Of a stretch of 64,000 nucleotides of DNA, positions 3,026 to 15,918 are shown one piece after another. The first letter of the stretch is position 1, and the number at the start of each line of letters is the position of its first letter. Location of the stretch: contig NZ_CP026652.1 in NCBI RefSeq assembly GCF_002946835.1, forward strand, positions 3,224,001-3,288,000. Reading direction: 5' to 3'. This DNA comes from Streptomyces dengpaensis (lineage in GTDB: Bacteria > Actinomycetota > Actinomycetes > Streptomycetales > Streptomycetaceae). The position numbers were made by a program, and so were the translations under genes. Below the pieces are notes generated by a model that saw only the letters and a program-made list of their open reading frames with translations, was not told the DNA's origin and searched no databases.

Positions 3026-3751
3026 GTGAACGGACCGGAGATCCACGTCGGATTCGACCCCGGACTGGGCCTGTTCGTCCCGCACGGGCGGCGCAAGGGT
3101 GCCACGGGCGTCGGGACGGACGGCTCCTCCTCGCTCGGCCATGTCGTCGAGTCGCTTGGCGTCCCGCTGACGGAGGTCGGCGCCCTGCTCGTCGACGGCC
3201 GCGAGGTGCCGTTCTCGCACGTCCCGTCGGCCGGCGAATCGGTGGAGGTCCGCGCGGTCGAGCGTCCGCAGCGGGTCCCCGGCGCCCCGCTCCGCTTCCT
3301 CCTCGACGTCCACCTCGGTACGCTCGCGCGGCGCCTGCGCCTCCTCGGCGTCGACACGGCGTACGAGTCGACGGACATCGGCGACCCGGCCCTCGCCGCG
3401 CGCTCGGCGGCCGAGCGGCGCGTGATGCTCAGCCGCGACCGCGGGCTGCTGCGCCGCCGCGAGCTGTGGGCGGGCGCCTTCGTCTACAGCACCCGGCCCG
3501 ATGACCAACTCCGCGACGTACTCGGCCGGTTCGCGCCCGAGCTGAAGCCCTGGACGCGCTGCACGGCGTGCAACGGCCTGCTCAAGGAGGCCACCAAGGA
3601 CCAGGTCGTGGACCAGCTGGAGGGCGGCACGCAGCGGTCGTACGACGTCTTCGCGCAGTGCGAGGAGTGCGGGCGCGCCTACTGGAAGGGCGCGCACCAC
3701 GACCGCCTGGTGGCGATCGTGGAGCGCGCCCTCGCGGAGTTCGGGGACTGA
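3026..3751 (+). CDS. Mut7-C RNase domain protein with N-terminal ubiquitin-like fold
   Basis: A 241-residue protein with a ubiquitin/ThiS-like N-terminus (~1-85) followed by a Mut7-C domain (~90-235). The second domain shows RFLLDVHLGTLARRLRLLGVDT, the acidic SRDRGLLRR motif typical of this PIN-like nuclease group, and a C-terminal zinc-ribbon Cys set (CTACNGLL ... CEECGRAYW). The family is named for the C-terminus of the Mut-7 exonuclease; the bacterial role is unproven but RNA processing is the usual suggestion. It starts at GTG, 4 bases after the TetR stop. Convergent with the copper-oxidase operon downstream. Function beyond the domain call is inference. Confidence 0.8.
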   Translation: MNGPEIHVGFDPGLGLFVPHGRRKGATGVGTDGSSSLGHVVESLGVPLTEVGALLVDGREVPFSHVPSAGESVEVRAVERPQRVPGAPLRFLLDVHLGTLARRLRLLGVDTAYESTDIGDPALAARSAAERRVMLSRDRGLLRRRELWAGAFVYSTRPDDQLRDVLGRFAPELKPWTRCTACNGLLKEATKDQVVDQLEGGTQRSYDVFAQCEECGRAYWKGAHHDRLVAIVERALAEFGD

Positions 3752-3774: not shown

Positions 3775-6186
3775 CTAACGCCTCTTCACGTCCTGGGCAC
3801 CGCAGGCGAGTCCATCCCTACTCGGGTCGAGCCCGAGCGGATCGTCCTTGCCGTTGACCTTCAGCCGCCCGTAGTCCTTCTCCTTCAGCCAGGCGCAGCG
3901 GCCGGCCGTCGTCTTCCGCACGCCGTCCGGGAAGACCGTCGGTACGCAGACGTTGATCGTGCCGTAGTGCCGGTCACAGCCGGAGAGGGTCGGGCTGACC
4001 TTCTGCGAGGCCCGCTTCTCGCCCGGCTTCGTGACGGTCCCCTCCAGGGAGTCGGCGAAGGAGTGGACGTGTGCGGACGCATCGGTCGCGCTGAGGGCCG
4101 TCGGGCCCTGGAGGTGGACCCACGTGGCCACCGACGGAACGCCGTTGGCGTCGACCGCGAAGAGCATGTACCAGCCGGGCGGGGCCAGGTTGGGGTTGCT
4201 CGTCACGTTCAGGTCGACGTTGTTGCCGTCCACCGACAGCGGCAGGTCCACGAACCGCTGGTTCGGGTCCGAGGAGTGCGTCACCGCGGCCGGGCGGATC
4301 AACTCGGCCTTGGCGATGGGCCGGTCGACGGTGATGCGCTGCGTGTCCCCGTACGTCCACTCGGTGTCGATCAACGAAGTGATCGTCGGGCGGGGGCCCT
4401 TGAGCAGGTAGGGCGGGGTGTAGATGGACACGTCGTGGTTCCAGGTGCCGTTGCCCGGGTTGTCGCCCGTCGTCATCACGCGGCCGTCGGGCAGCAGGAA
4501 CGCGGACGAGTGGTAGCCGCGCTCCTCCGGGTCGGCGGTCACCGGGTCGAAGGTGTTCGTCGCCGGGTCGTAGATCGACGACTCGTAGACCGGGTTGGCG
4601 CGGTTGTTCAGGGCGCCGCCCGTCTCCAGGACCTTGCCGTCGGGCAGCAGGACGGCGGAGACGTATATCTTGCCCTGGCCGCCGGTCTGGGGCACCGGAC
4701 CGTTGCCCAGGTCGACCGTGCCCTGCGGCAGAGGCGGCCCGGCGGCGTACGACGGGTCGGCCGCCTTGAGGTCGATGATGTCGGTCAGACGGTTGGCGTC
4801 CGGGTTGGAGTCGATGTTGCCGCCGCCGAGGGTGAGGACCTTCTGGTCCTGGGCCGGGGGCAGCAGCACACTGGCGGACTGGTCGCGTTCGTCCTTGTTC
4901 TGCAGCCCGGGAATCGCCGTCGTCGTGTTGGCGTCGTAGTCGTAGATCGCGGAGCCCGTGCCGGGGGTGCCGTTGCCGAAGACATGGCTGCCCGAGTAGA
5001 ACAGGCGGCCGTCCTGCATCAAGATCATCGACGGGTACAGACCCCAGTACGACCAGGTCTGGTTGACCTTCCACGTCGGCAGCCACCGCTGCTCGGCGTC
5101 CGACCACAGCTCCGCCGTCACCGAGCCGGTCGAGTCCTCGCGCAGTCCGCCGAAGGAGATGACGTCGCCGTTGCCGAGCGCGGTCGCCGACGGGTACCAG
5201 TGGCCGTCGTTCATGTCGTTGGTCTTGCTGTACGTCTCGGTGGCCGGGTCGAAGACGTACGAGTCCTTGTAGCCCTCGTAGCCGTGCCCGCCTGCAACCG
5301 GGTACGCCTTGTTGCCGCTCATCACGAGAACGCGCCCGTCCTGGAGCTGGACGTGCCCCGCGCAGAACATGTCCTTCGGCGTGGGGATGACCTTGTAGGT
5401 GCCGTTGGCCGGGTCGTACACCGCCGAGGTGAACGTGCCCGCGTTGAACTGCTCCTCGCTGTTGCCGGAGCCCGCGATCAGCAGCACCTTGCCGTTGTTG
5501 AGGACGACGGAGTGCATGGAGCGGACCGGGTTCTGCGTGGGCAGGACGTCCCACTTGCCGTCGGCGCACTCCTCGGCGGTGCCCGTGCACACGGGGTCCG
5601 GGACGGGGTCGGCGACCTGTTCCATGGTGTAGTCGTCGGTCGTCGCCGAGCCCGTGCCGTACACCGAGACGCCCCAGGTGATCCGGTCGGTGCCCGCCGG
5701 GACCTCGGGGGTGCGGACCGTGGCCTGGGTCCAGCCGCCCGCCATGTCCAGGGTCTTGAGGTCGGTCCAGTACTGCCAGCCCCCCGTCGTGTCGTGCCGG
5801 AAGAGCGTGATGGACGCGTCGGGCGTCGTCGTCCTGTACCAGAGCCCGAGGTCGTACTGCTTGCCCGCGCTGACCACCGGCGCGCAGTCGGTGGACTCGG
5901 TGATCAGCGCCTTGCGGTCGCCGTCGACGCGGCGGGTCAGCTCGACCTTCATGGCCCTGGAGCCGGAGTGGGCGTCGGCGACCGTGGAGAAGGTGAAGTC
6001 GTTGTCGCCCCAGCCGGACTTCTCCCAGCAGTACGGCATGTCGTCCGTGCCGGCTGTTTCGAAGCCGGGGTTCTTGACCCGGTTGGCGGCGGACGCGGGC
6101 TGCGGCGAGATCAGCAGCAGCCCGGCGGCGAGGCCCGCCACGGCCAGCAGTGAGGTTCTCCGTCTGGGGCGTGCCGGATATGTCAT
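3775..6186 (-). CDS. Secreted galactose/glyoxal oxidase-like copper radical enzyme
   Basis: An 803-residue exported protein and the last gene of a four-gene glycan operon. Residues 1-33 are a signal peptide (PRRR, hydrophobic core, PASA). Residues ~35-190 look like a carbohydrate-binding beta-sandwich. From ~210 there are kelch-type repeats (LPDGKVL, LQDGRVLVM), then a DUF1929-like C-terminal early-set domain to ~695. Copper-radical oxidase residues can be matched to galactose oxidase: Cys275 in DMFCAGH and Tyr331 in HWYPSA (thioether pair), Tyr558-His559 in RGYHSSAF, and His637 in VTHSSDPNQRF. Residues ~735-797 add a Cys-rich, Excalibur-like tail (DPLGLDPSRDGLACG), which is not usual for the family. 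Its ATG overlaps the upstream stop as ATGA. Streptomyces GlxA, encoded beside the glycan synthase CslA, is the nearest known analogue; this may be a paralogue. Confidence 0.88.
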   Translation of the reverse strand: MTYPARPRRRTSLLAVAGLAAGLLLISPQPASAANRVKNPGFETAGTDDMPYCWEKSGWGDNDFTFSTVADAHSGSRAMKVELTRRVDGDRKALITESTDCAPVVSAGKQYDLGLWYRTTTPDASITLFRHDTTGGWQYWTDLKTLDMAGGWTQATVRTPEVPAGTDRITWGVSVYGTGSATTDDYTMEQVADPVPDPVCTGTAEECADGKWDVLPTQNPVRSMHSVVLNNGKVLLIAGSGNSEEQFNAGTFTSAVYDPANGTYKVIPTPKDMFCAGHVQLQDGRVLVMSGNKAYPVAGGHGYEGYKDSYVFDPATETYSKTNDMNDGHWYPSATALGNGDVISFGGLREDSTGSVTAELWSDAEQRWLPTWKVNQTWSYWGLYPSMILMQDGRLFYSGSHVFGNGTPGTGSAIYDYDANTTTAIPGLQNKDERDQSASVLLPPAQDQKVLTLGGGNIDSNPDANRLTDIIDLKAADPSYAAGPPLPQGTVDLGNGPVPQTGGQGKIYVSAVLLPDGKVLETGGALNNRANPVYESSIYDPATNTFDPVTADPEERGYHSSAFLLPDGRVMTTGDNPGNGTWNHDVSIYTPPYLLKGPRPTITSLIDTEWTYGDTQRITVDRPIAKAELIRPAAVTHSSDPNQRFVDLPLSVDGNNVDLNVTSNPNLAPPGWYMLFAVDANGVPSVATWVHLQGPTALSATDASAHVHSFADSLEGTVTKPGEKRASQKVSPTLSGCDRHYGTINVCVPTVFPDGVRKTTAGRCAWLKEKDYGRLKVNGKDDPLGLDPSRDGLACGAQDVKRR

Positions 6187-7385
6187 GCGGCTCTCCTTGC
6201 TGTGCGGCTCGCGCGCCCGGGCTTGCTGCTGCGGCGCGGCAGATAGACCAGCGCCTCGGTCCCCGCGAAGCGCAGGACGAAGGTCGTCACCAGGGCCAGT
6301 GCGGTGGCGGTGAGCGCGCTCATCCCGAAGCGGCCGACGAAGAGCGCGATCAGCGGGATGCGCAGCATCAGATCGGCGTTGGCGAGCAGCGCGAACCGGC
6401 CGACGCGGTCCCACCAGCTGCGGTGCTTGCGGCGCTCGCGGAAGAGCAGATGCTCGATGAGCAGGAAGTTCCAGGCCACCCCGAGCTGGTTGGCGAGGAT
6501 CTCGGCCGGTACGTAGTGCATGCCGGCGGCGGTGAGCGCGTACAGGCCGAGCAGGTTCGGTACGAAGCCGGTGGCGCCGATCAGTCCGAAGACCGCCATG
6601 CGCGCGACCGGCGAGGCGGTGCGCAGCCCGACGAGGTGGCGCAGGAACCGGAAGCCCTCCCGCGCGGTCGACTTGGATTCGCCCGCGAACCGGTCCTGGA
6701 AGACGAAGGGCACCTCGGTGACCTGGCGGGGGCGGCTGCGTACGGCGAGTTCGAGGAGGATCTTGTAGCCGAGCGGCTGGAGGATCTCCGCGGTGACCGC
6801 GCTGCGCCGGATGGCGAAGAAGCCGCTCATCGGGTCGCTGATGCCGCGCAGTGTGCGCGGGAAGAGCGTCTTGGTCAGCCAGGTCGCGCTGCGCGAGACG
6901 GCGATGCGGTAGCCGCCCGCGAGTCCGGCGCGGCTGCCGCCCTTGATGTAGCGGCTGGCGACAACGAGCCCGGCGTTCGCGCGCTCGCCGGACGCGACCA
7001 GCTCCGGTACCAGGGACGGCGGATGCTGGCAGTCTCCGTCCATGACGACGATCCAGTCCGAGGTCGCCGCCTTCAGCCCTTCGACGACCGCGCCGCCGAG
7101 CCCGCCGGCCGGCTCCTTGCGGTGCAGGACGGTGACCGGGAAGGGGCAGTCCTGCGCCGCCTCGTGGATCACGTCGGGCGTGTCGTCCGTGGAGTCGTCG
7201 ACGAAGACGACCTCGCAGGGCAGCCGGGCCGGCACCGATGCGGTGATCTGGTGCAGCAGCTCGCTGATGTTCGCGGACTCGTTGAAGGTCGGTACGACGA
7301 TGGTGACGGCGCCGGGTTCGGGAAGCTCGGCCGCGTGTGCGACCGGGTCGCCCAGCTCGTCGGGGACGGTGGACTCGTGGCTCAT
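6183..7385 (-). CDS. Polyprenol-phosphate mannose synthase-like GT2 with GtrA membrane domain
   Basis: A 400-residue two-domain protein. Residues ~27-235 are a GT2 glycosyltransferase of the dolichol-phosphate mannose synthase type: VTIVVPTFNESANI, VDDSTDDTP, the metal site MDGDCQHPP (D116-D118), and ISDPMSGFFAIRR near the end of the catalytic domain. Residues ~265-390 form a four-helix GtrA-like membrane domain ending in a basic tail. Such enzymes charge a polyprenyl phosphate with a sugar on the cytoplasmic face, and GtrA modules are associated with flipping. The preceding gene (GT39-like) would be the natural user of such a lipid-linked sugar. Both ends overlap neighbours as ATGA, implying translational coupling. 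The sugar donor is not visible from sequence. Confidence 0.9.
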   Translation of the reverse strand: MSHESTVPDELGDPVAHAAELPEPGAVTIVVPTFNESANISELLHQITASVPARLPCEVVFVDDSTDDTPDVIHEAAQDCPFPVTVLHRKEPAGGLGGAVVEGLKAATSDWIVVMDGDCQHPPSLVPELVASGERANAGLVVASRYIKGGSRAGLAGGYRIAVSRSATWLTKTLFPRTLRGISDPMSGFFAIRRSAVTAEILQPLGYKILLELAVRSRPRQVTEVPFVFQDRFAGESKSTAREGFRFLRHLVGLRTASPVARMAVFGLIGATGFVPNLLGLYALTAAGMHYVPAEILANQLGVAWNFLLIEHLLFRERRKHRSWWDRVGRFALLANADLMLRIPLIALFVGRFGMSALTATALALVTTFVLRFAGTEALVYLPRRSSKPGRASRTARRAA

Positions 7386-9022
7386 CGGGAGCCTCCCGCA
7401 CTCTGGATCTGCCGGATCTCGATCCGGTCGGCGCCCTTGCCGAAGGTGGCGACCGGCGTCGAGTGCTCGATCGCGGCCTTGACGTTGGGCAGGTCGACCG
7501 CGTCGCGCCGTACGGTCGGGGAGGCGACGACATAGTCGAGGTCGCGCCAGCCGCGCGGCATCGTCCTGCTCAACGCGGGGTCGAGGTCCGCCTTGTAGAA
7601 CCAGATGACGCCGAGCCCGGGCTCGTAGCCGTGGTGGACGAGGTCGAGCCACAGCGCGTCGTCGACCAGGACCCGCGTGTCCTGCGGGTCCTTCACCTCG
7701 GTCTTCAGCCAGGAAGAGGCCGCCCGGTAGGGGGCGTTGGCGTCGGTGGTCATGGCGGTGCGGTCGCCGTCGTACCAGCGCGGCACGACATAGGCGCCGG
7801 CGGCCACCACGAGTACGGCCGCCAGCCCGCGGCGCCCCCAGGTGACGTACGTCTTCTCCTCCTCGCCGCGCCACCTGCGCAGCACCGCGTGCACGACGCT
7901 CGCGGTGCCTCCGGCTAGGACGAGCGCGAGGAACGGCAGGGCCTGGATGACGTACATCGCGGGCAGGTAGCCGCTCGGGCGCAGGGCCACCAGGGCGAGG
8001 ATCGCCACGGTGAGCGCGGGTCCGGCCAGGGCGCGCGCGGTCATCGACCAGCGCCAGGTGACCAGGAGCAGCAGGGCGCCCGCGAGGCCGCCGAGGGGCA
8101 GCACGCGGTCGTAGTACAGCCAGGACTGGAGGACGCCGTACGAGCCGGTGCCCTGGTCGAGGATGAACCCGGAGCCGGGGCGGCTCATCTGGTACTTGAT
8201 GCCGTCCCAGAGCGAGACATGTCCCGAGCCCGGGAGCATCTCGCCCTTGAGCAGGGCGAAGAGCGGGTACGCGAGGCCGATCAGCGCGCAGGCGGTGACG
8301 GCTCCGGTGAGCGCGAACTTGCGGGTGTCGCGGTGGCTGTGCCGCCACATGGTGACGAACAGCGCGGGCAGGACAACGAGCATCGTCTCCTTGGTGAGCA
8401 CGGCGGCGGCGGCCGCGATGCCCGCCCCGAAGTGGTGCCAGAGGTGGCGGCTCGGGGACGCGGCCAGGCAGAACGCGAGCAGCGTCCACATCACCGCGAT
8501 GTTGTCGAGGAAGATCTCGCGCTGGAGCACGACCGACAGCGGGGAGAGCCCGAAGAGCACCATCGCGAGCCCGGCCGCCCACCGCGGCAGCGAGAGACGG
8601 CGCGCGAGGACGTACACGAGGACCGCGCTGACGGCGCTGATCACCAGCATCGCGGCGCGCATCGCGCCGACGGTCATCAGCTCCGGGCTGAGCTGGGCCG
8701 GGATCCAGGTCAGGACGGCTATCTGGATCCAGCCGAGCGGCGGGTGGTCGTACCAGTACGTGTAGTGGGCCAGGCCCCTGCCCTCCTGGACGGCCCAGGC
8801 CTGGGCGAGGTAGGTGCCCTCGTCGTCGCTGAGGGCCGGGTAGGCGGCGATGTTCCAGCCCTGGACGACGATGATCGCCGCGAGGAGCACTGCGCACAGG
8901 ATCAGATCGGAGCGGGAGCTGCGAAAACCCAGGACCGGATGGGCGTTGGGGACGATTTTGGGCGCACGAGGCCGCTGCGCGGGGACCGTGGGTGTGGTCG
9001 CCGCGTCAAGAGTGGAGGTCAC
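7382..9022 (-). CDS. GT39/ArnT-like polytopic glycosyltransferase
   Basis: A 546-residue membrane protein with a GT-C fold. About ten hydrophobic helices follow a proline-rich cytoplasmic N-terminus. The first extracellular loop carries the catalytic acidic motif SDDEGTYLAQAW (D66-D67-E68), then YWYDHPPLGW, typical of PMT/ArnT-type transferases; LQREIFLDN matches the second conserved loop. The C-terminal ~150 residues form a soluble extracytoplasmic domain. The family takes sugars from polyprenyl-phosphate carriers and transfers them to protein or glycan outside the membrane. The next gene encodes a probable lipid-sugar synthase, so the pair forms a plausible donor/transferase module. ATGA overlaps on both sides. 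The acceptor is unknown: it could be the polymer made by the first gene, or a protein. Confidence 0.87.
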   Translation of the reverse strand: MTSTLDAATTPTVPAQRPRAPKIVPNAHPVLGFRSSRSDLILCAVLLAAIIVVQGWNIAAYPALSDDEGTYLAQAWAVQEGRGLAHYTYWYDHPPLGWIQIAVLTWIPAQLSPELMTVGAMRAAMLVISAVSAVLVYVLARRLSLPRWAAGLAMVLFGLSPLSVVLQREIFLDNIAVMWTLLAFCLAASPSRHLWHHFGAGIAAAAAVLTKETMLVVLPALFVTMWRHSHRDTRKFALTGAVTACALIGLAYPLFALLKGEMLPGSGHVSLWDGIKYQMSRPGSGFILDQGTGSYGVLQSWLYYDRVLPLGGLAGALLLLVTWRWSMTARALAGPALTVAILALVALRPSGYLPAMYVIQALPFLALVLAGGTASVVHAVLRRWRGEEEKTYVTWGRRGLAAVLVVAAGAYVVPRWYDGDRTAMTTDANAPYRAASSWLKTEVKDPQDTRVLVDDALWLDLVHHGYEPGLGVIWFYKADLDPALSRTMPRGWRDLDYVVASPTVRRDAVDLPNVKAAIEHSTPVATFGKGADRIEIRQIQSAGGSR

Positions 9023-10302
9023 GCAGGAACGTCCTCTCGGATCACTTCGGTGAGATGCGCGCCGACATGACTGGTCAACTCCCAGTCGGTGCGGCCCCGT
9101 TGCTCGCGCCAGACGGCGCGCACGGCGGCGCCCGCAAGGAGCACCTGGTAGAAGGGACCGCCCACGATGAGCTTCAGATAGTGGACGAAGCGGACGCGCA
9201 GCCCGTACTGCTTGCCGAAGTCGTGGAGTCCGACGACCTCGAAGACGAAGGTGACGAACGCCGTGACGGCCGGCAGGAAGGTGATGAAGGCGATGCCGAC
9301 CGGTACGTCGAGGAAGAACGCGATCGCCGCGTTCAGCGGGATGATGACGCCGGTGAAGGCCTGCATGAACGGCGTCATGAGGGTGTAGCGGGCGAGCAAC
9401 CGCTGGCCGAAGCCCGGGAGTTGCCTCCAGTCCTTCTTCCGGTACACCTGGAGGAAGCCCTGGTTCCAGCGGGTGCGCTGCTTCAGCAGCGACATCAGCG
9501 AGCCCGGGGTCTCCTCCTTGGTCACCATGTCGGAGTCGTAGGCGACGACGACCTTCTTGCCCACGCTGGAGAGCCTGACGCCCAGGTCGCAGTCTTCCGC
9601 GAGGCAGTCGGGGTCCCAGCCGTCGGCTTCCTTGAGTACGTCCGTCCGTACGAAGACGGTGTTGCCGCCGAGCGGAATGAACCCCTTCTGCGCGTGCAGA
9701 TGGAGCCGGGAGCGGAACCAGAAGAAGTACTCCAGGCAGTTGCGCAGGCTGTACCAGCTGGAGTGGAAGTTGATGAGCTGCACGCCGCCCTGGACGACGT
9801 CCGCGCCCGTCGTGCGGAACGCGTGATCCACGTGGGCGAGCAGCTCCGGGTGGACCTGGTCCTCGGCGTCGAAGACTCCGACGACGTCGCCGCGGCAGTG
9901 CGGCAGCGCCGTGTTCATGGCCTTCGGCTTGTTCTTCTTGTCGTGGTGGTCGACGACGACGCGGACGCGCGCGTCGCGCTCCGCGGCACCGCGCGCCACG
10001 TCGGTGGTCTCCGGATCGTCGTGCCCGACGATCACGATGATCTCGAAGTCGGTGTGACTGGATTCCAGCAGCCGCTGGATCGTGTGGTCGAGCACGGTCT
10101 GCTCGTGCCGCGCGGGCAGCAGCAGCGAGAAGGACAGACTCTCACCGCCGTCCGGACTGCTGAACCGGGTGGAGGCGAGCACTTCGGGCGTACGCCACGC
10201 GTGCATCTGCCACCACAGTGTGAAGGCTGCCATCCAGAAGAGCGCCAGAGAAACGGCAGCAATGAAGACAGACGTGACCAACAGATCCCCCCAGATCCCC
10301 AA
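9019..10302 (-). CDS. Processive GT2 glycan synthase (membrane)
   Basis: A 427-residue protein and the first gene of the operon. One N-terminal membrane helix (~8-30), a cytoplasmic GT2 domain and about four C-terminal membrane segments, as in cellulose, hyaluronan and PNAG synthases. The catalytic signature is complete: VFDAED (D145-D148), LAEDCD (catalytic acid, ~235-239) and QRTRW (Q275-W279), the last being the Q-x-x-R-W mark of processive enzymes. It probably extrudes a beta-linked polysaccharide; the sugar cannot be told from sequence. The start is TTG with AGGGG five bases upstream. That Shine-Dalgarno lies inside a perfect palindrome (10305-10322), so translation may be controlled. 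A TTG at about 10284 is an alternative start. Confidence 0.88.
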   Translation of the reverse strand: MGIWGDLLVTSVFIAAVSLALFWMAAFTLWWQMHAWRTPEVLASTRFSSPDGGESLSFSLLLPARHEQTVLDHTIQRLLESSHTDFEIIVIVGHDDPETTDVARGAAERDARVRVVVDHHDKKNKPKAMNTALPHCRGDVVGVFDAEDQVHPELLAHVDHAFRTTGADVVQGGVQLINFHSSWYSLRNCLEYFFWFRSRLHLHAQKGFIPLGGNTVFVRTDVLKEADGWDPDCLAEDCDLGVRLSSVGKKVVVAYDSDMVTKEETPGSLMSLLKQRTRWNQGFLQVYRKKDWRQLPGFGQRLLARYTLMTPFMQAFTGVIIPLNAAIAFFLDVPVGIAFITFLPAVTAFVTFVFEVVGLHDFGKQYGLRVRFVHYLKLIVGGPFYQVLLAGAAVRAVWREQRGRTDWELTSHVGAHLTEVIREDVPA

Positions 10303-10304
10303 AA

Positions 10305-10342
10305 CCCCTGTCGCGACAGGGGGTCACTGTGAGTCTCAGTGA
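10305..10342. promoter_or_regulatory. Palindromes covering the leader of the glycan operon
   Basis: CCCCTGTCGCGACAGGGG at 10305-10322 is a perfect 18-bp palindrome whose minus-strand copy contains the Shine-Dalgarno (AGGGG) of the glycan-synthase gene. A second inverted repeat, TCACTG-(7 bases)-CAGTGA, occupies 10324-10342. They could be repressor operators or an RNA structure that hides the ribosome-binding site. An AT-rich stretch at ~10395-10415 may hold the operon promoter. Confidence 0.5.
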
Positions 10343-10413
10343 GTCACACCTGTCGCGCCGCCGTGCAGACACTAAGGGGGAACTGTGAAGCCTATGAGTT
10401 ATTCAGATAAATA

Positions 10414-10490: not shown

Positions 10491-12530
10491 TCAGACGGCG
10501 TTCACGCTGCCCACCGCGTCCTTGAGGCGCTGGACATCGGATGTCGGGGCGTCACACGTGAAGTTGCGGCACACGTACGCGGTCGGCTGATCGTCGGCCA
10601 GAGGCCGGCCGGAAAGCAGCGGCAGCTCGTCACTCCCGGGCGTGCCCACGGCGACGACGGCTCCCGGGGCGGTGCTCAGCAGGGCGGTGCGGTGCAGGGC
10701 CCGGGTGGCCGGATCGCCGGCCGGGCCCACGACCGCGATCTCGCGCGGCCCGTCGAGCAGCGCCTCGGCCACCGCCAGCCCCCACCCGATGAAGCGGGGC
10801 GCACGCGGACCGAGCGCCTTCACCACGCCCAACGCCCGCTCGGCGGCGGCGCGATGGGGCTCGGCGCCGGTCTGCGCCGCGTACGACAGCAGCGCACCGG
10901 CCGCCGCGCTCCACCCGGACGGCGTGGCGTTGTCGGTCGGATCCTGCGGACGGCGGATGAGCCGCTCGGCATCGGCCGCCGTGTCGTACAGCGCACCGGA
11001 CTCGGCGTCCGCGAACTGGACGATCACGTGGTCGAGCAGGAACCCGGCGAATTCGAGCCAGACCCCTTCCCCGGTGACGGACGCGAGCGCGAGGAAGCCT
11101 TCGGCGACATCCGCGTAGTCCTCCAGTACACCCGCGTTCGCGCCGACGTGGCCGTCCTTGCTGGTACGGGACAACCGCGCGCGATCGTCCATGTGCAGAC
11201 GTACGAGGAGGTCGGCGGCGCCGATCGCGGCGTCCACGAGGTCGGGCCGGTCGAAGTAGGCGCCGGTCTCCGCGAGGGCGGCGATGGCGAGCCCGTTCCA
11301 GGCGGCGACCACCTTGTCGTCGCGGCCGGGGGCGGGGCGTCCGGCGCGTGCGGCGAGGAGCCGCTCGCGGATGGAGGCGATCTTCTCGGCGTCGAAGACG
11401 CCGTCGCGCTGAGGGAGTTGCAGGACCGACTGCCCGTGCTCGAAGGTGCCCTCCTCGGTCACCCCGAAGTAGTGGGCGGCGAGTTCGGCGTCGTCGCCGA
11501 GGACGTCATGCAGCTGCCGCGGGGTCCACACGTAGTACGCGCCCTCGACATGCCGCCCGCTCCCGTCGTCACTGTCGGCGTCGAGCGCGGAGGCGAACCC
11601 GCCCTCCTCGGTGCGGAGTTCGCGCGCCAGGAAGTCGGCGGTCTCGAGGGCGACGCGGCGGGCGAGCTCGGACCCGGTGGCCCGCCAGAGGTGGGCGAAC
11701 ACGCGGCAGAGCAGGGCATTGTCGTACAGCATCTTCTCGAAGTGGGGCACGACCCACTCGCGGTCGACGGAGTACCGGGCGAAGCCCCCGCCGAGCTGGT
11801 CGTAGATGCCACCGCGCGCCATGCGCTCGCAGGTGTCGGCGGCCATCTGCAGCGCACCCTCGGAACCGGTCCGCGCATGATGCCGCAGCAGGAATTCAAG
11901 GACCATGGACGGCGGGAACTTGGGCGCCCCACCGAATCCGCCCCGCGTCGCGTCGTACTCCCGGGTGAGCCCGAGCAGCGCGCGGGCCAGCTCCTCCTCG
12001 CCGGGCGCCTGGCTGTCCCCGACGCCCAGCTCCCGCCCGGCCAGATCCCGCGTGATCTTCCCCGCCACGTCGGTGACCTCGTCCCGCCGGTCGGTCCAGG
12101 CGTTGTGCACACCCTCCAGCACCTGCAGGAAGGAGGGCATGCCGTGACGGGGCTCGGGCGGGAAGTAGGTGCCGAAGTAGAAGGGCTCGGCGTCCGGCGT
12201 GAGGAACACGGTCATGGGCCAGCCGCCCTGCCCGGTCGCCGCCTGCACGGCCTCCATGTACACAGCGTCGACGTCCGGGCGCTCCTCGCGGTCGACCTTG
12301 ATGCTGACGAAGTGATCGTTCATGTAGGCGGCCGTCGCCTCGCCCTCGAACGACTCGTGGGCCATCACATGGCACCAGTGACAGCTGCTGTAGCCGACGC
12401 TCAGCAGGACCGGCTTGTCGCTCTTGCGGGCCTCGTCGAAGGCCTCGGCCGACCAGGGCCACCAGTCGACGGGGTTGTCGGCGTGCTGGAGGAGGTAGGG
12501 GGACGTCTCATGGGCCAGTCGGTTCGGCAT
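10491..12530 (-). CDS. Thioredoxin-fold DUF255 / YyaL-type protein
   Basis: A 679-residue protein of the widespread YyaL / spermatogenesis-associated protein 20 type. The N-terminus opens with [24 protein letters not shown], the family signature, followed by a thioredoxin-like active site [15 protein letters not shown] (C50, C53) at ~48-62. The rest (~190-660) resembles an alpha/alpha-toroid of the six-hairpin glycosidase type (for example [11 protein letters not shown]). Length matches the family. Neither a redox substrate nor a glycosidase activity is established. The ATG at 12530 is chosen because the family begins MPNRLAHE; an upstream extension is possible but atypical. Probably monocistronic. 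Confidence 0.9.
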
Positions 12531-12696
12531 ACGTCCATCCTGCCGCAGTACCCGGCACCTCACCCGTCAGGCATGTCCGGCAGGGCCCCGGCGAACGATC
12601 GCCGGCCCATGCGAATGATCGCCGGTCCTCTCGCCTTCACGTGCGGAACGAAGGACACTCGTCTGCAAAGGAGTTGCTGACGGAGGGGGACGTCAC

Positions 12697-15600
12697 ATGC
12701 GGGACAGCCATCGGGCGGAGGCCGAGGGGCTGTTGGCCCGGGCCGTGGAGGAAGAGGCACGGCGGACGGGTGGGCGGATCGACGAGGGTGTGCTGCTGTC
12801 GCGGGCGCGGGCCGCGCTGGACGCGATGGCGCAGACCGCCGCCGAGGAGTACGCGGCGTACACGCGGGCACTCGACGAGGCGGAGGCGGGACGGCTGACG
12901 TTCGGGCAGCGGTATGCCCGGCAGGGCGGCGGAACGCCCTTACTGGTGACGGCTGTTGCAGCCGTCGCCGCCGTGGTCGCGGACCTGGCGTTCGGTACGG
13001 ACACGGGGACGGCGATCGGCGCGGGCGCCACGGTGGCGGTGGCGGGCGCCGCGGCCACCGTGCTCAAGGTGACCGCCGCGCATGTGCCGGCCGCGAGCCG
13101 CCGGGCCGGCGCCCTGGGGCAGCCCGGCGGCCCGGAGCAGCTGCGCCTGCAGTGGCTGACGGCCCTGGACGTACGGGGCATCCGTCCCTTCCTCGACCAG
13201 CAGCGGGTGCTCAGCGCCTCCACGGGCGCGAAGCAGGGCGCGCCCCAGTTGCGGCGCACCGACAAGAGCGCGGCCGCGCGGCGGCGCAGCGTCCTGGAGC
13301 AGTCGTTCGGTCAACTGCCCGAGCCGGACGGCCCGTTCGCGGGACGCCGCACCGAGATGGCACGCGTCGCGCAGTGGGTGCACGCGGCGCGCGCGAGCAC
13401 GGAGACGAAGCCGACGGTGGTCGTGCTGTACGGCGCGCCCGGCTCCGGCCGCAGCACTCTCGCCGTCCGGGTGGCGCACGACCTCAGGGACCAGTTCCGG
13501 GGCGCGTGCGTGGTGGACCTGCGCGGGGACAGCCCGGACGACCCGCCGCTGACCACCCGCGACGCGCTGCTCCACCTGCTGAACCGGCTCGGCGCACCGC
13601 GCGAACAGCTCCTCTTCCGCGAGCGTTCCTCACAGGACCAGCAGGTCAGGAGGCTGGGCGAGCTGTACCACCAGCATCTGACGGGTCTGGCGGTGACGAT
13701 CGTCCTGGACGACGCGAGCGACGCCGAGCAGGTGCGCACCCTGATCCCCGAGCGCTCGGAGAGCCTGGTCCTGGTCACCGCCCGCCGGCCGCTCGACCTG
13801 CCCGCCGACCTCCCCGCCTGGGTGCACCAGCTGCCCGTCGAGGCGCTGGACGCGGCGGGCGCCGAGGAGCTGCTGAACGCGACAGCGCAGGACGCCTCGG
13901 GCCCGTACGACGCCGAATCCGCCGACCGGGTACGGGAGTTGTGCGGCGGCCTGCCGCTGGCCCTGCGCATCGCGGGTTCCTCCCTCGGCCCCCGCACACC
14001 GCGCCTGCTGGCCTCCGACCTGGCGGCATACGGCCCCGTGGAACCGGTCGAGCGCGTGCTGTGGCTGCGCTATACGGACCAGTCCGACATGGCGCGCCGG
14101 CTCCTGCGCCGTCTGGCCCTGGCGGGCCGAGCCTCCCTCGGCGCGGCCGCGGCGGCGTCCCTGCTGGCCACGGACGAGCCCGAGGCGGGCCGCCATCTGA
14201 CCGCGCTCTGGCAGGCGGGCCTGATCGACCACGTCCGCGGCAGCCGCTACCGGCTGCACGACCTCGTACGGGCCTTCGCGGGCGCCCGCCTCCTCGACGA
14301 GGAGGAGCCGTCCGAGCGTACGGCGGCGCAGGAGCGTCTGATCGTGAACTACGCGGAGCTCGCCGACTCGGTGATCCGCCTGGTCGACGGCAAGACGTCC
14401 ACGCGAGCGGACACCGCTTTTCATTCGAGCACCGTGGGCCCGCACGGATTCACCTCGCTCGACGCGGCTCTGCGCTGGCTGGACGACGAGTCGAGCTTCA
14501 TCACGGCGGCCCTGCGCCACGCGGAGGGCGTGAACCAGGCGGCGGTCCTGAACCTGCTGGGCGCCCTGTGCGACTACTGCCTGCTCCGCGGAGACCTCTA
14601 CCGCCTGGGCGAGATCAGCGAGCTGACGCAGGCCGTGGACCAGGGTCTGCTGGTCCGCTCGGTCCAGTGGCGTACGGGCATCGCGGCCCGCCAGCTCGGT
14701 GAGCTGGACAAGGCGCGCACGACCCTGACCTCCGTCGTGGACCTGTACTTCGAGGCCCATCACGACGCGGGCGCGGCCAGGGCGCTCTGTTCCCTCGGCA
14801 TCACCCTCCACCACCAGGGCAACCTCACCGAGGCGGCGGCCAAGCTCCAGGAGGCCATGGACCTCCAGGCCTCCCCCGGCCTGGCGGCCGACCGCGCCTG
14901 GACGATGCACGCGCTCGCGGCGGTGGAGCGCGACCGCTCCCGCCTGGCCCAGGCCCTGGACCTGCTCACCCAGGCCCTGGTCCTGCACCGCGAGAGCGGG
15001 TCCGTGCACGGCGAGGCGTGGGCCCACTTCCAGCTCGGCCAGCTGGGCCTGCGCATGGGCGACGTACCGCGCGCGGAACGGGAACTGCGCGAGGCCCTCG
15101 ACCTGTACGGCCGCACCCGCGACGCCCGCGGCGAGGCCTGGGCCCTCACCCAGCTGGCCCGCGCCCGCCTCGTCGACGGCGACCCGTCCACCGCGGTCGC
15201 GGGGCTGCGCCAGGCGGCCTCCCGGCACCGCGAGAACGAGGACGCGCGGGGCGAGGCGTGGACGATCTACTACCTGGGCCAGGCCCTGGAGGAGGGCGGC
15301 AACCTGGACTCGGCGGTCCGCGAACTGGAGCGCTCGCGCACGATGTTCTCCCGCATGCGCGACGTCTACGGCCTCGCCTGTGCCCGTCACCACTCGGCCC
15401 GCGTCACCCGCGACCAGCGTGCCGCCCAGACCGGCTCGCTGCGCAACTCCGGCTTCGCCCGCCAGCTCCTGGTCGACGCCCGCGCCGACTTCCAGCGCAT
15501 CGGCGTGGCCCACGGCGAGGCCTGGACCTGCCTGGAACTTGCGGTGGTGGACGCGGGAAACGCCCGTACACAGCAGGCGCTGGCGCTGTGCGACGAAGCG

Positions 15601-15918
15601 ATCGGCCTCTTCACGTCGTACGGCGACCGCCGCGGCGAGGACTGGGCGCGCTTCCTTCGCTGCACCCTGCTCCCGTACGCGGCCCCGGGCGGCTACGAGG
15701 TCGGCGCCGCCGTCGCCCAGGAGGAACTGACCCAACTCTCCCGCACCGGCCACCCGTCCCGCGACGCCAAGCTGGACGACTACATCGAGGCGTACCAGCT
15801 GCTGCTGGAGCGAGGAGTCGACCTGGACGCCGGCTGGCAGGCCTGGCGCCTGGGAATGGTGCCGGGGCGGTATGCACGGGACGTGATGGGGGTGGCGGTG
15901 GCTTCGGCCAACTCCTAG
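12697..15918 (+). CDS. Membrane-anchored STAND (NB-ARC) NTPase with C-terminal TPRs
   Basis: A 1073-residue signalling-type ATPase. Order: helical N-terminus (~1-75); two hydrophobic segments (~79-100 and ~103-128); NB-ARC domain (~205-430); winged-helix region ending RLHDLVRAFA; TPR array (~620-1020). NTPase motifs: Walker A GAPGSGRST (246-254), where Arg replaces the usual Lys; Walker B VTIVLDDA (333-340); sensor LVLVTARR (357-364); GLPLAL (418-423). At least four ~40-residue repeats carry GEAW near their start (HGEAWAHFQLGQL, RGEAWALTQLA and others). Such proteins switch on oligomerisation after ligand sensing; known relatives act in regulation or phage defence. No effector domain is recognisable and no partner gene is adjacent. 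GGAGGGGGACGTCAC precedes the ATG. Confidence 0.85.
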   Translation: MRDSHRAEAEGLLARAVEEEARRTGGRIDEGVLLSRARAALDAMAQTAAEEYAAYTRALDEAEAGRLTFGQRYARQGGGTPLLVTAVAAVAAVVADLAFGTDTGTAIGAGATVAVAGAAATVLKVTAAHVPAASRRAGALGQPGGPEQLRLQWLTALDVRGIRPFLDQQRVLSASTGAKQGAPQLRRTDKSAAARRRSVLEQSFGQLPEPDGPFAGRRTEMARVAQWVHAARASTETKPTVVVLYGAPGSGRSTLAVRVAHDLRDQFRGACVVDLRGDSPDDPPLTTRDALLHLLNRLGAPREQLLFRERSSQDQQVRRLGELYHQHLTGLAVTIVLDDASDAEQVRTLIPERSESLVLVTARRPLDLPADLPAWVHQLPVEALDAAGAEELLNATAQDASGPYDAESADRVRELCGGLPLALRIAGSSLGPRTPRLLASDLAAYGPVEPVERVLWLRYTDQSDMARRLLRRLALAGRASLGAAAAASLLATDEPEAGRHLTALWQAGLIDHVRGSRYRLHDLVRAFAGARLLDEEEPSERTAAQERLIVNYAELADSVIRLVDGKTSTRADTAFHSSTVGPHGFTSLDAALRWLDDESSFITAALRHAEGVNQAAVLNLLGALCDYCLLRGDLYRLGEISELTQAVDQGLLVRSVQWRTGIAARQLGELDKARTTLTSVVDLYFEAHHDAGAARALCSLGITLHHQGNLTEAAAKLQEAMDLQASPGLAADRAWTMHALAAVERDRSRLAQALDLLTQALVLHRESGSVHGEAWAHFQLGQLGLRMGDVPRAERELREALDLYGRTRDARGEAWALTQLARARLVDGDPSTAVAGLRQAASRHRENEDARGEAWTIYYLGQALEEGGNLDSAVRELERSRTMFSRMRDVYGLACARHHSARVTRDQRAAQTGSLRNSGFARQLLVDARADFQRIGVAHGEAWTCLELAVVDAGNARTQQALALCDEAIGLFTSYGDRRGEDWARFLRCTLLPYAAPGGYEVGAAVAQEELTQLSRTGHPSRDAKLDDYIEAYQLLLERGVDLDAGWQAWRLGMVPGRYARDVMGVAVASANS

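Follow-up and report, generated by a model that had tools for sequence, protein, structure and literature searches.

In Streptomyces, the CslA-GlxA(-CslZ) system combines the synthase CslA with the copper oxidase GlxA and has a GH6 gene beside that of the oxidase; GlxA is described as working with cellulose synthase in vitro (PMC11022532). In the bacterial cellulose system, the GT2-fold BcsA is accompanied by BcsZ, which is assigned to family GH8 (PMC9693552). Systems for protein or lipid glycosylation pair a DPMS-like protein, which has a membrane domain, with a PMT-family transferase, and the AA5 oxidases include galactose oxidase and glyoxal oxidase. A locus of Streptomyces dengpaensis resembles each of these systems in part: four minus-strand genes lie within positions 3775-10302 of a 64,000-nucleotide stretch (contig NZ_CP026652.1, positions 3,224,001 to 3,288,000; hereafter the window), and their products are given the working names GT2, PMT, DPMS-GtrA and oxidase. 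The set, proposed in a first-pass annotation, is real, its conserved co-occurrence exceeding chance. On balance, we think it probable that it encodes a modular envelope-glycan machine separate from CslA-GlxA, in which a polymer is extruded, receives a lipid-linked sugar and is finished by oxidation or hydrolysis.

The set differs from CslA-GlxA(-CslZ) in using a 420-aa GT2 different from CslA, in containing PMT and DPMS-GtrA genes, and in lying at a separate locus without GH6 (the genome's own GH6, used as query, has no match in the window); compared with GlxA, its oxidase has added N- and C-terminal domains and, judged by core lengths, lacks the GlxA insert. The GT2 fold is shared with BcsA/BcsZ, and GH8 adjoins GT2-PMT in loci of other families, whereas the present set adds PMT and DPMS-GtrA and has an oxidase where GH8 would be. 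Unlike DPMS and PMT glycosylation systems, it is tied to a synthase-like GT2 gene and not to a known protein acceptor. Its oxidase shares fold and active-site residues with galactose and glyoxal oxidase but is bacterial, is encoded in a putative glycan operon and belongs to its own clade beside GlxA. No description of this gene set was found in the open-licence literature.

The four genes and their products

The coding span extends from 10281 to 3775, and each stop overlaps the start of the next gene: GTGA at the GT2/PMT junction (9022-9019) and ATGA at the other two (7385-7382 and 6186-6183), in place of the three ATGA overlaps first reported. The GT2 gene (9019..10281, minus strand) had been given a start at 10302; translation most likely begins at TTG 10281, codon 8 of the 427-codon open reading frame, because a start codon is conserved there. 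Of 94 loci strongly matched by GT2 (some genomes are represented twice), 85 have TTG or GTG at codon 8 and the remaining nine have one at most three codons away; codon 1 is TTG in only 22.

GT2 has the complete D, D, D, Q-x-x-R-W set of a processive membrane GT2, as had been claimed: D88/D89, D138-A-E, E229-D230 and Q268-x-x-R-W (QRTRW at 268-272; 420-aa numbering) are invariant across 20 aligned homologues. In the predicted model (predicted template-modelling score, pTM, 0.85), which was built from 20 aligned sequences, one N-terminal and about three C-terminal membrane helices are seen, and about 380 residues, membrane helices among them, can be matched to the folds of BcsA and hyaluronan synthase, as would be expected of a processive membrane synthase; a Pfam scan reported neither a BcsB nor a PilZ domain in GT2. 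The fold comparison also scores PcManGT as high as BcsA, and a profile search returned a ceramide glucosyltransferase at E about 9e-5. The QxxRW motif is also present in ceramide glucosyltransferases, so GT2 could be a non-processive enzyme making a glycolipid that PMT extends, with the oxidase acting on the head group or elsewhere. We regard this as distinctly unlikely: PcManGT is matched over 334 residues, against the longer, helix-containing matches to BcsA and hyaluronan synthase; GH8 or GH6 genes lie near many relatives; and GlxA, the sister of the oxidase, works with cellulose synthase (PMC11022532).

PMT (7382..9022, minus strand; 546 aa), whose GTG start overlaps the GT2 stop, is a PMT/GT-C-type transferase that matches Pfam PF02366 at 45.9 bits (cut-off 22.7) and carries D66-D67-E68, in agreement with its earlier description as a GT39-like enzyme with DDE; it has no PDB sequence match up to E 1. 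The next product, DPMS-GtrA (6183..7385, minus strand), had been read as a DPM1-like GT2 fused to GtrA, and PF00535 and PF04138 do occur in this one 400-aa protein, a DPMS-like polyprenyl-phosphate sugar synthase fused to a GtrA membrane domain; residues 26-374, spanning catalytic and membrane parts, match Pyrococcus furiosus DPMS (5mlz, E 3.7e-51).

The last gene (3775..6186, minus strand) encodes an 803-aa, predicted-secreted AA5 radical copper oxidase with an N-terminal signal sequence, a beta-rich region (~45-195), a core (~201-693) and a C-terminal domain. A single hydrophobic stretch (11-29) is followed by an AxA-like site and preceded, in many but not all orthologues, by an Arg-Arg pair; export may be by Tat or Sec, and the stretch may be cleaved off or, as in GlxA, stay as an N-terminal membrane helix. 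Judged by its residues, the active site is intact, with a Cys-Tyr pair, an axial Tyr, two His and a nearby Trp: C275, Y331, Y558-H559 and H637 stand where the first-pass annotation had placed them, the Trp is W330, and all are kept in every module and GlxA row covering the column in the alignment. The predicted model has the seven-bladed propeller and E-set fold of AA5; the rows listed in the structural comparison cover 203-694 only. Neither the N-terminal (~30-197) nor the C-terminal (~693-803) part has a Pfam match, and the N-terminal part has no PDB sequence match and no second copy in the same genome; we would guess that it binds carbohydrate, and the C-terminal domain may resemble excalibur calcium-binding repeats. 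The closest named relatives of the oxidase, among the 120 best of 1788 matches, are all from Streptomyces. Close to the module of Streptomyces apocyni (L166) lies a gene for another AA5-like protein of 757 aa, only distantly related, whose frame ends near 17.6 kb.

Distribution in Streptomyces and relation to cslA-glxA

In a survey of 61 Streptomyces genomes, a full-length oxidase orthologue was found in 25 and one cut by a contig end in another (G028); orthologues of GT2 and PMT occur in exactly the same 26 genomes. The order is rearranged in two of them (G016 and G020), where DPMS-GtrA and GT2 are inverted and PMT and the oxidase are forward, with all four genes still together at the same chromosomal site. 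Some Streptomyces show decay of the module: G043 (L049) retains only fragments of the oxidase and GT2. In G055, a distant GT2-PMT pair occurs but no orthologue of the oxidase. AA5 enzymes release H2O2, and the oxidase might instead supply H2O2 for defence or to a peroxidase of the wall, its link to a glycan being incidental; GlxA, for its part, is described as working with the peroxidase DtpA (PMC4736821). We consider this very improbable, since oxidase, GT2 and PMT strictly co-occur and still share one locus where the gene order has been rearranged.

GlxA-type proteins are present in 47 of the 61 genomes: 19 of the 26 module genomes and 28 of the other 35. The module oxidase is the only one of its type detected in the seven module genomes in which no GlxA was found. 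The counts (19/7/28/7, p 0.55) show no sign of the anti-correlation expected if the module replaced GlxA; the three genes co-occur independently of GlxA, which bears out the earlier suggestion of a conserved set distinct from cslA-glxA. That suggestion would have fallen had S. dengpaensis lacked a separate pair. PF09118 occurs at two places in its genome, the present set and C1:5473596 (L023), and the latter is canonical, with cslA (648 aa), glxA (645 aa) and a convergent GH6-like gene. An LPMO-like gene lies about 5.5 kb from the end of glxA at that locus.

The oxidase scores 404 bits with the NCBIfam model for GlxA, below its cut-off of 800. For the oxidase tree, 47 sequences were picked from 139 open frames, and 41 were kept after removal of fragments and of three distant paralogues. 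One clade (support 100/100) unites the module oxidases from Streptomyces, Frankiaceae and a single member of the Pseudonocardiaceae, and another (support 100/99) unites GlxA of Streptomyces and Frankia, a split left unchanged by dropping long branches. This two-clade tree implies that the module and GlxA types either diverged earlier than their copies in Streptomyces and Frankia or were transferred as types. It has also to be asked whether the module is a duplicated cslA-glxA locus, since additional copies of cslA-glxA have been described from the genomes of three Streptomyces (PMC3543389), and true extra copies with GH6 do occur at other loci. The tree, the GlxA cut-off and the separate locus lead us to reject duplication as extremely improbable, and in tblastn comparisons GT2 resembles CslA at only 21-27 per cent over part of its length, the match to the genome's own CslA being at 22-27 per cent. 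The view of the locus as a second, architecturally different assembly thus holds, on the separate cslA-glxA locus, the conserved gene set and the placement of the oxidase in a sister clade of GlxA. Five loci (L050, L051, L053, L058 and L059) encode another type of GlxA together with a CslA of its own; this GlxA shares about 53-55 per cent identity with that of S. dengpaensis, and a GH6 match lies nearby at every locus except L059.

Variants beyond Streptomyces and the proposed pathway

Named genomes were scanned with a GT2 alignment, and the best 80 of 432 relatives were considered, some genomes being counted twice among the loci (e.g., L118 = L182). All four genes are present in 57 of 57 Streptomyces loci. 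The Frankiaceae have a different gene order with an inserted gene for the copper chaperone Sco (PF02630): of 17 loci, several of which lie on short contigs, all 17 have GT2, 16 PMT, 15 Sco, 12 the oxidase and 11 DPMS-GtrA, and all five genes are present at each of the 10 loci longer than 14 kb. The Sco gene is noteworthy because Sco is described as required for GlxA maturation in S. lividans (PMC4736821); the same source places a sco gene next to a Frankia cslA-glxA cluster, which may include the present module. Frankia has cslA-glxA-GH6 loci of its own (L077-L080), a table in PMC9194555 gives at most one glxA per Frankia genome, and two Frankia genomes have a second Sco-GT2-PMT-DPMS-GtrA set at contig ends (L189 and L190). 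S. dengpaensis has a single Sco gene, away from the module.

At nine distinct loci in other families, the GT2-PMT pair is followed by GH8, with no oxidase (L118, L119, L126, L178 and L183-L187; GH8 was assigned by Pfam in three and by similarity in the rest); the named hosts are Nocardioides, Microlunatus, Mycolicibacterium and a metagenome-assembled genome of the Mycobacteriaceae. Four of the nine have separate Ppm1-like and GtrA genes, corresponding to the two halves of the fused protein. Conversely, GH8 was matched in none of the 120 sequences with an oxidase match above 400 bits (168 searched, duplicates included). An uncharacterised beta-glycan system of other actinobacteria may be encoded by these GT2-PMT-GH8 loci. 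A sortase gene occurs in one of them (L119), and a DUF4397 secreted protein is encoded between the genes in some (L186:12419-13261) and fused to the PMT frame in L178. At another locus, L098, a GH6 gene lies about 2 kb away.

Across these variants, the GT2-PMT pair is constant, whereas the supplier of the polyprenyl sugar, the hydrolase, and the oxidase together with its chaperone vary, a pattern that fits synthesis of a polymer by GT2, its modification with sugar by PMT and a finish by oxidase or hydrolase. The membrane GT2 would polymerise and extrude a beta-linked glycan, perhaps beta-1,4-glucan-like, as its fold and the cellulase-type genes beside its relatives suggest; DPMS-GtrA, by analogy with its family, would load a sugar onto polyprenyl phosphate and flip it; PMT would transfer the lipid-linked sugar on the outside of the membrane, with the growing glycan as the most likely acceptor; and the copper radical oxidase, if it follows AA5 chemistry, would convert an alcohol group exposed on the chain or on a side sugar into an aldehyde, releasing H2O2. 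The polymer, side sugar, acceptor, oxidase substrate and order of steps given here are what we infer. As a more tentative extension, the core of GT2 and PMT, with the chain branched outside the membrane from a lipid-linked sugar, may be an unrecognised module, actinobacteria-wide, with interchangeable finishes, by oxidase in Streptomyces, Frankia and one member of the Pseudonocardiaceae and by GH8 in the other families.

The main rival assigns DPMS-GtrA and PMT to protein O-glycosylation of the co-encoded secreted protein, with GT2 making an unrelated glycan. PMT belongs to the Pfam family of the protein mannosyltransferases, whose usual partner is DPMS, and each variant encodes a secreted protein, either the oxidase or GH8 with the DUF4397 protein. 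PMT, however, adjoins GT2 even at two loci at which neither oxidase nor GH8 was found (L130 and L188), and the trees of GT2 and PMT recover the same main groups, though several deep branches are weak and long. GT2 is therefore the tightest partner of PMT, and its pairing with PMT where the oxidase is missing fits the earlier suggestion that a polyprenyl-linked sugar may decorate the polymer before it is oxidised; we consider protein O-glycosylation rather unlikely. Several observations nevertheless weigh against the extruded, decorated and enzymatically finished glycan that we favour. The same two loci have no finishing enzyme of either kind; DPMS-GtrA is found in 23 of the 26 module genomes, being absent from G002, G021 and G035, and is split into two frames in G018; PcManGT ties with BcsA, as noted above; the mean pLDDT (predicted local distance difference test) of the oxidase model is 71.6; and the models of the oxidase and GT2 were built from 24 and 20 aligned sequences, respectively.

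Leader region, neighbouring genes and wider meaning

Upstream of GT2, on the minus strand, lies a leader hairpin of eight pairs (10312..10357), with arms CGCGACAG (10357-10350) and CTGTCGCG (10319-10312), preceded by a conserved promoter-like block, CTTCACAG-TTCCCCC-TTAGTGTCTGCA (10364..10390, minus strand). Pairing was counted in 46 of 66 upstream regions; the other 20 were set aside because their loops carry long inserts or their frame is shifted. In these 46 sequences, 94.3 per cent of hairpin cells pair, falling to 19 to 55 per cent when the hairpin is slid by one to three columns, and six of the eight pairs show changes on both sides among relatives. Shuffles pair at 87.6 per cent, and these controls ignore relatedness. 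Because pairing is conserved with two-sided changes, the alignment suggests an RNA or attenuator-like leader element; no Rfam family matches the leader or the window. A perfect palindrome, CCCCTGTCGCGACAGGGG (10305-10322), was discarded as an element, since it is not conserved as such and the wider hairpin is.

A gene for a DUF255/thioredoxin-like protein (10491-12563, minus strand) is the upstream neighbour of GT2, and a Mut7-C gene (3026-3751), convergent with the set, lies downstream of the oxidase. An NB-ARC/TPR (STAND-like) regulator-type protein is encoded at 12697-15918 of the window and adjoins the DUF255 gene in many of the Streptomyces loci retrieved.

If the proposed pathway is correct, the CslA-GlxA glucan would not be the only oxidase-coupled surface polymer of Streptomyces and the root-nodule bacterium Frankia, and the second one could account for some of the uncharacterised extracellular glycan. 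To branch an extruded beta-glycan with lipid-linked sugar and then oxidise it enzymatically would be an unusual way of assembling a polymer, and the exchange of oxidase for GH8 offers a natural experiment on the role of such finishing enzymes.

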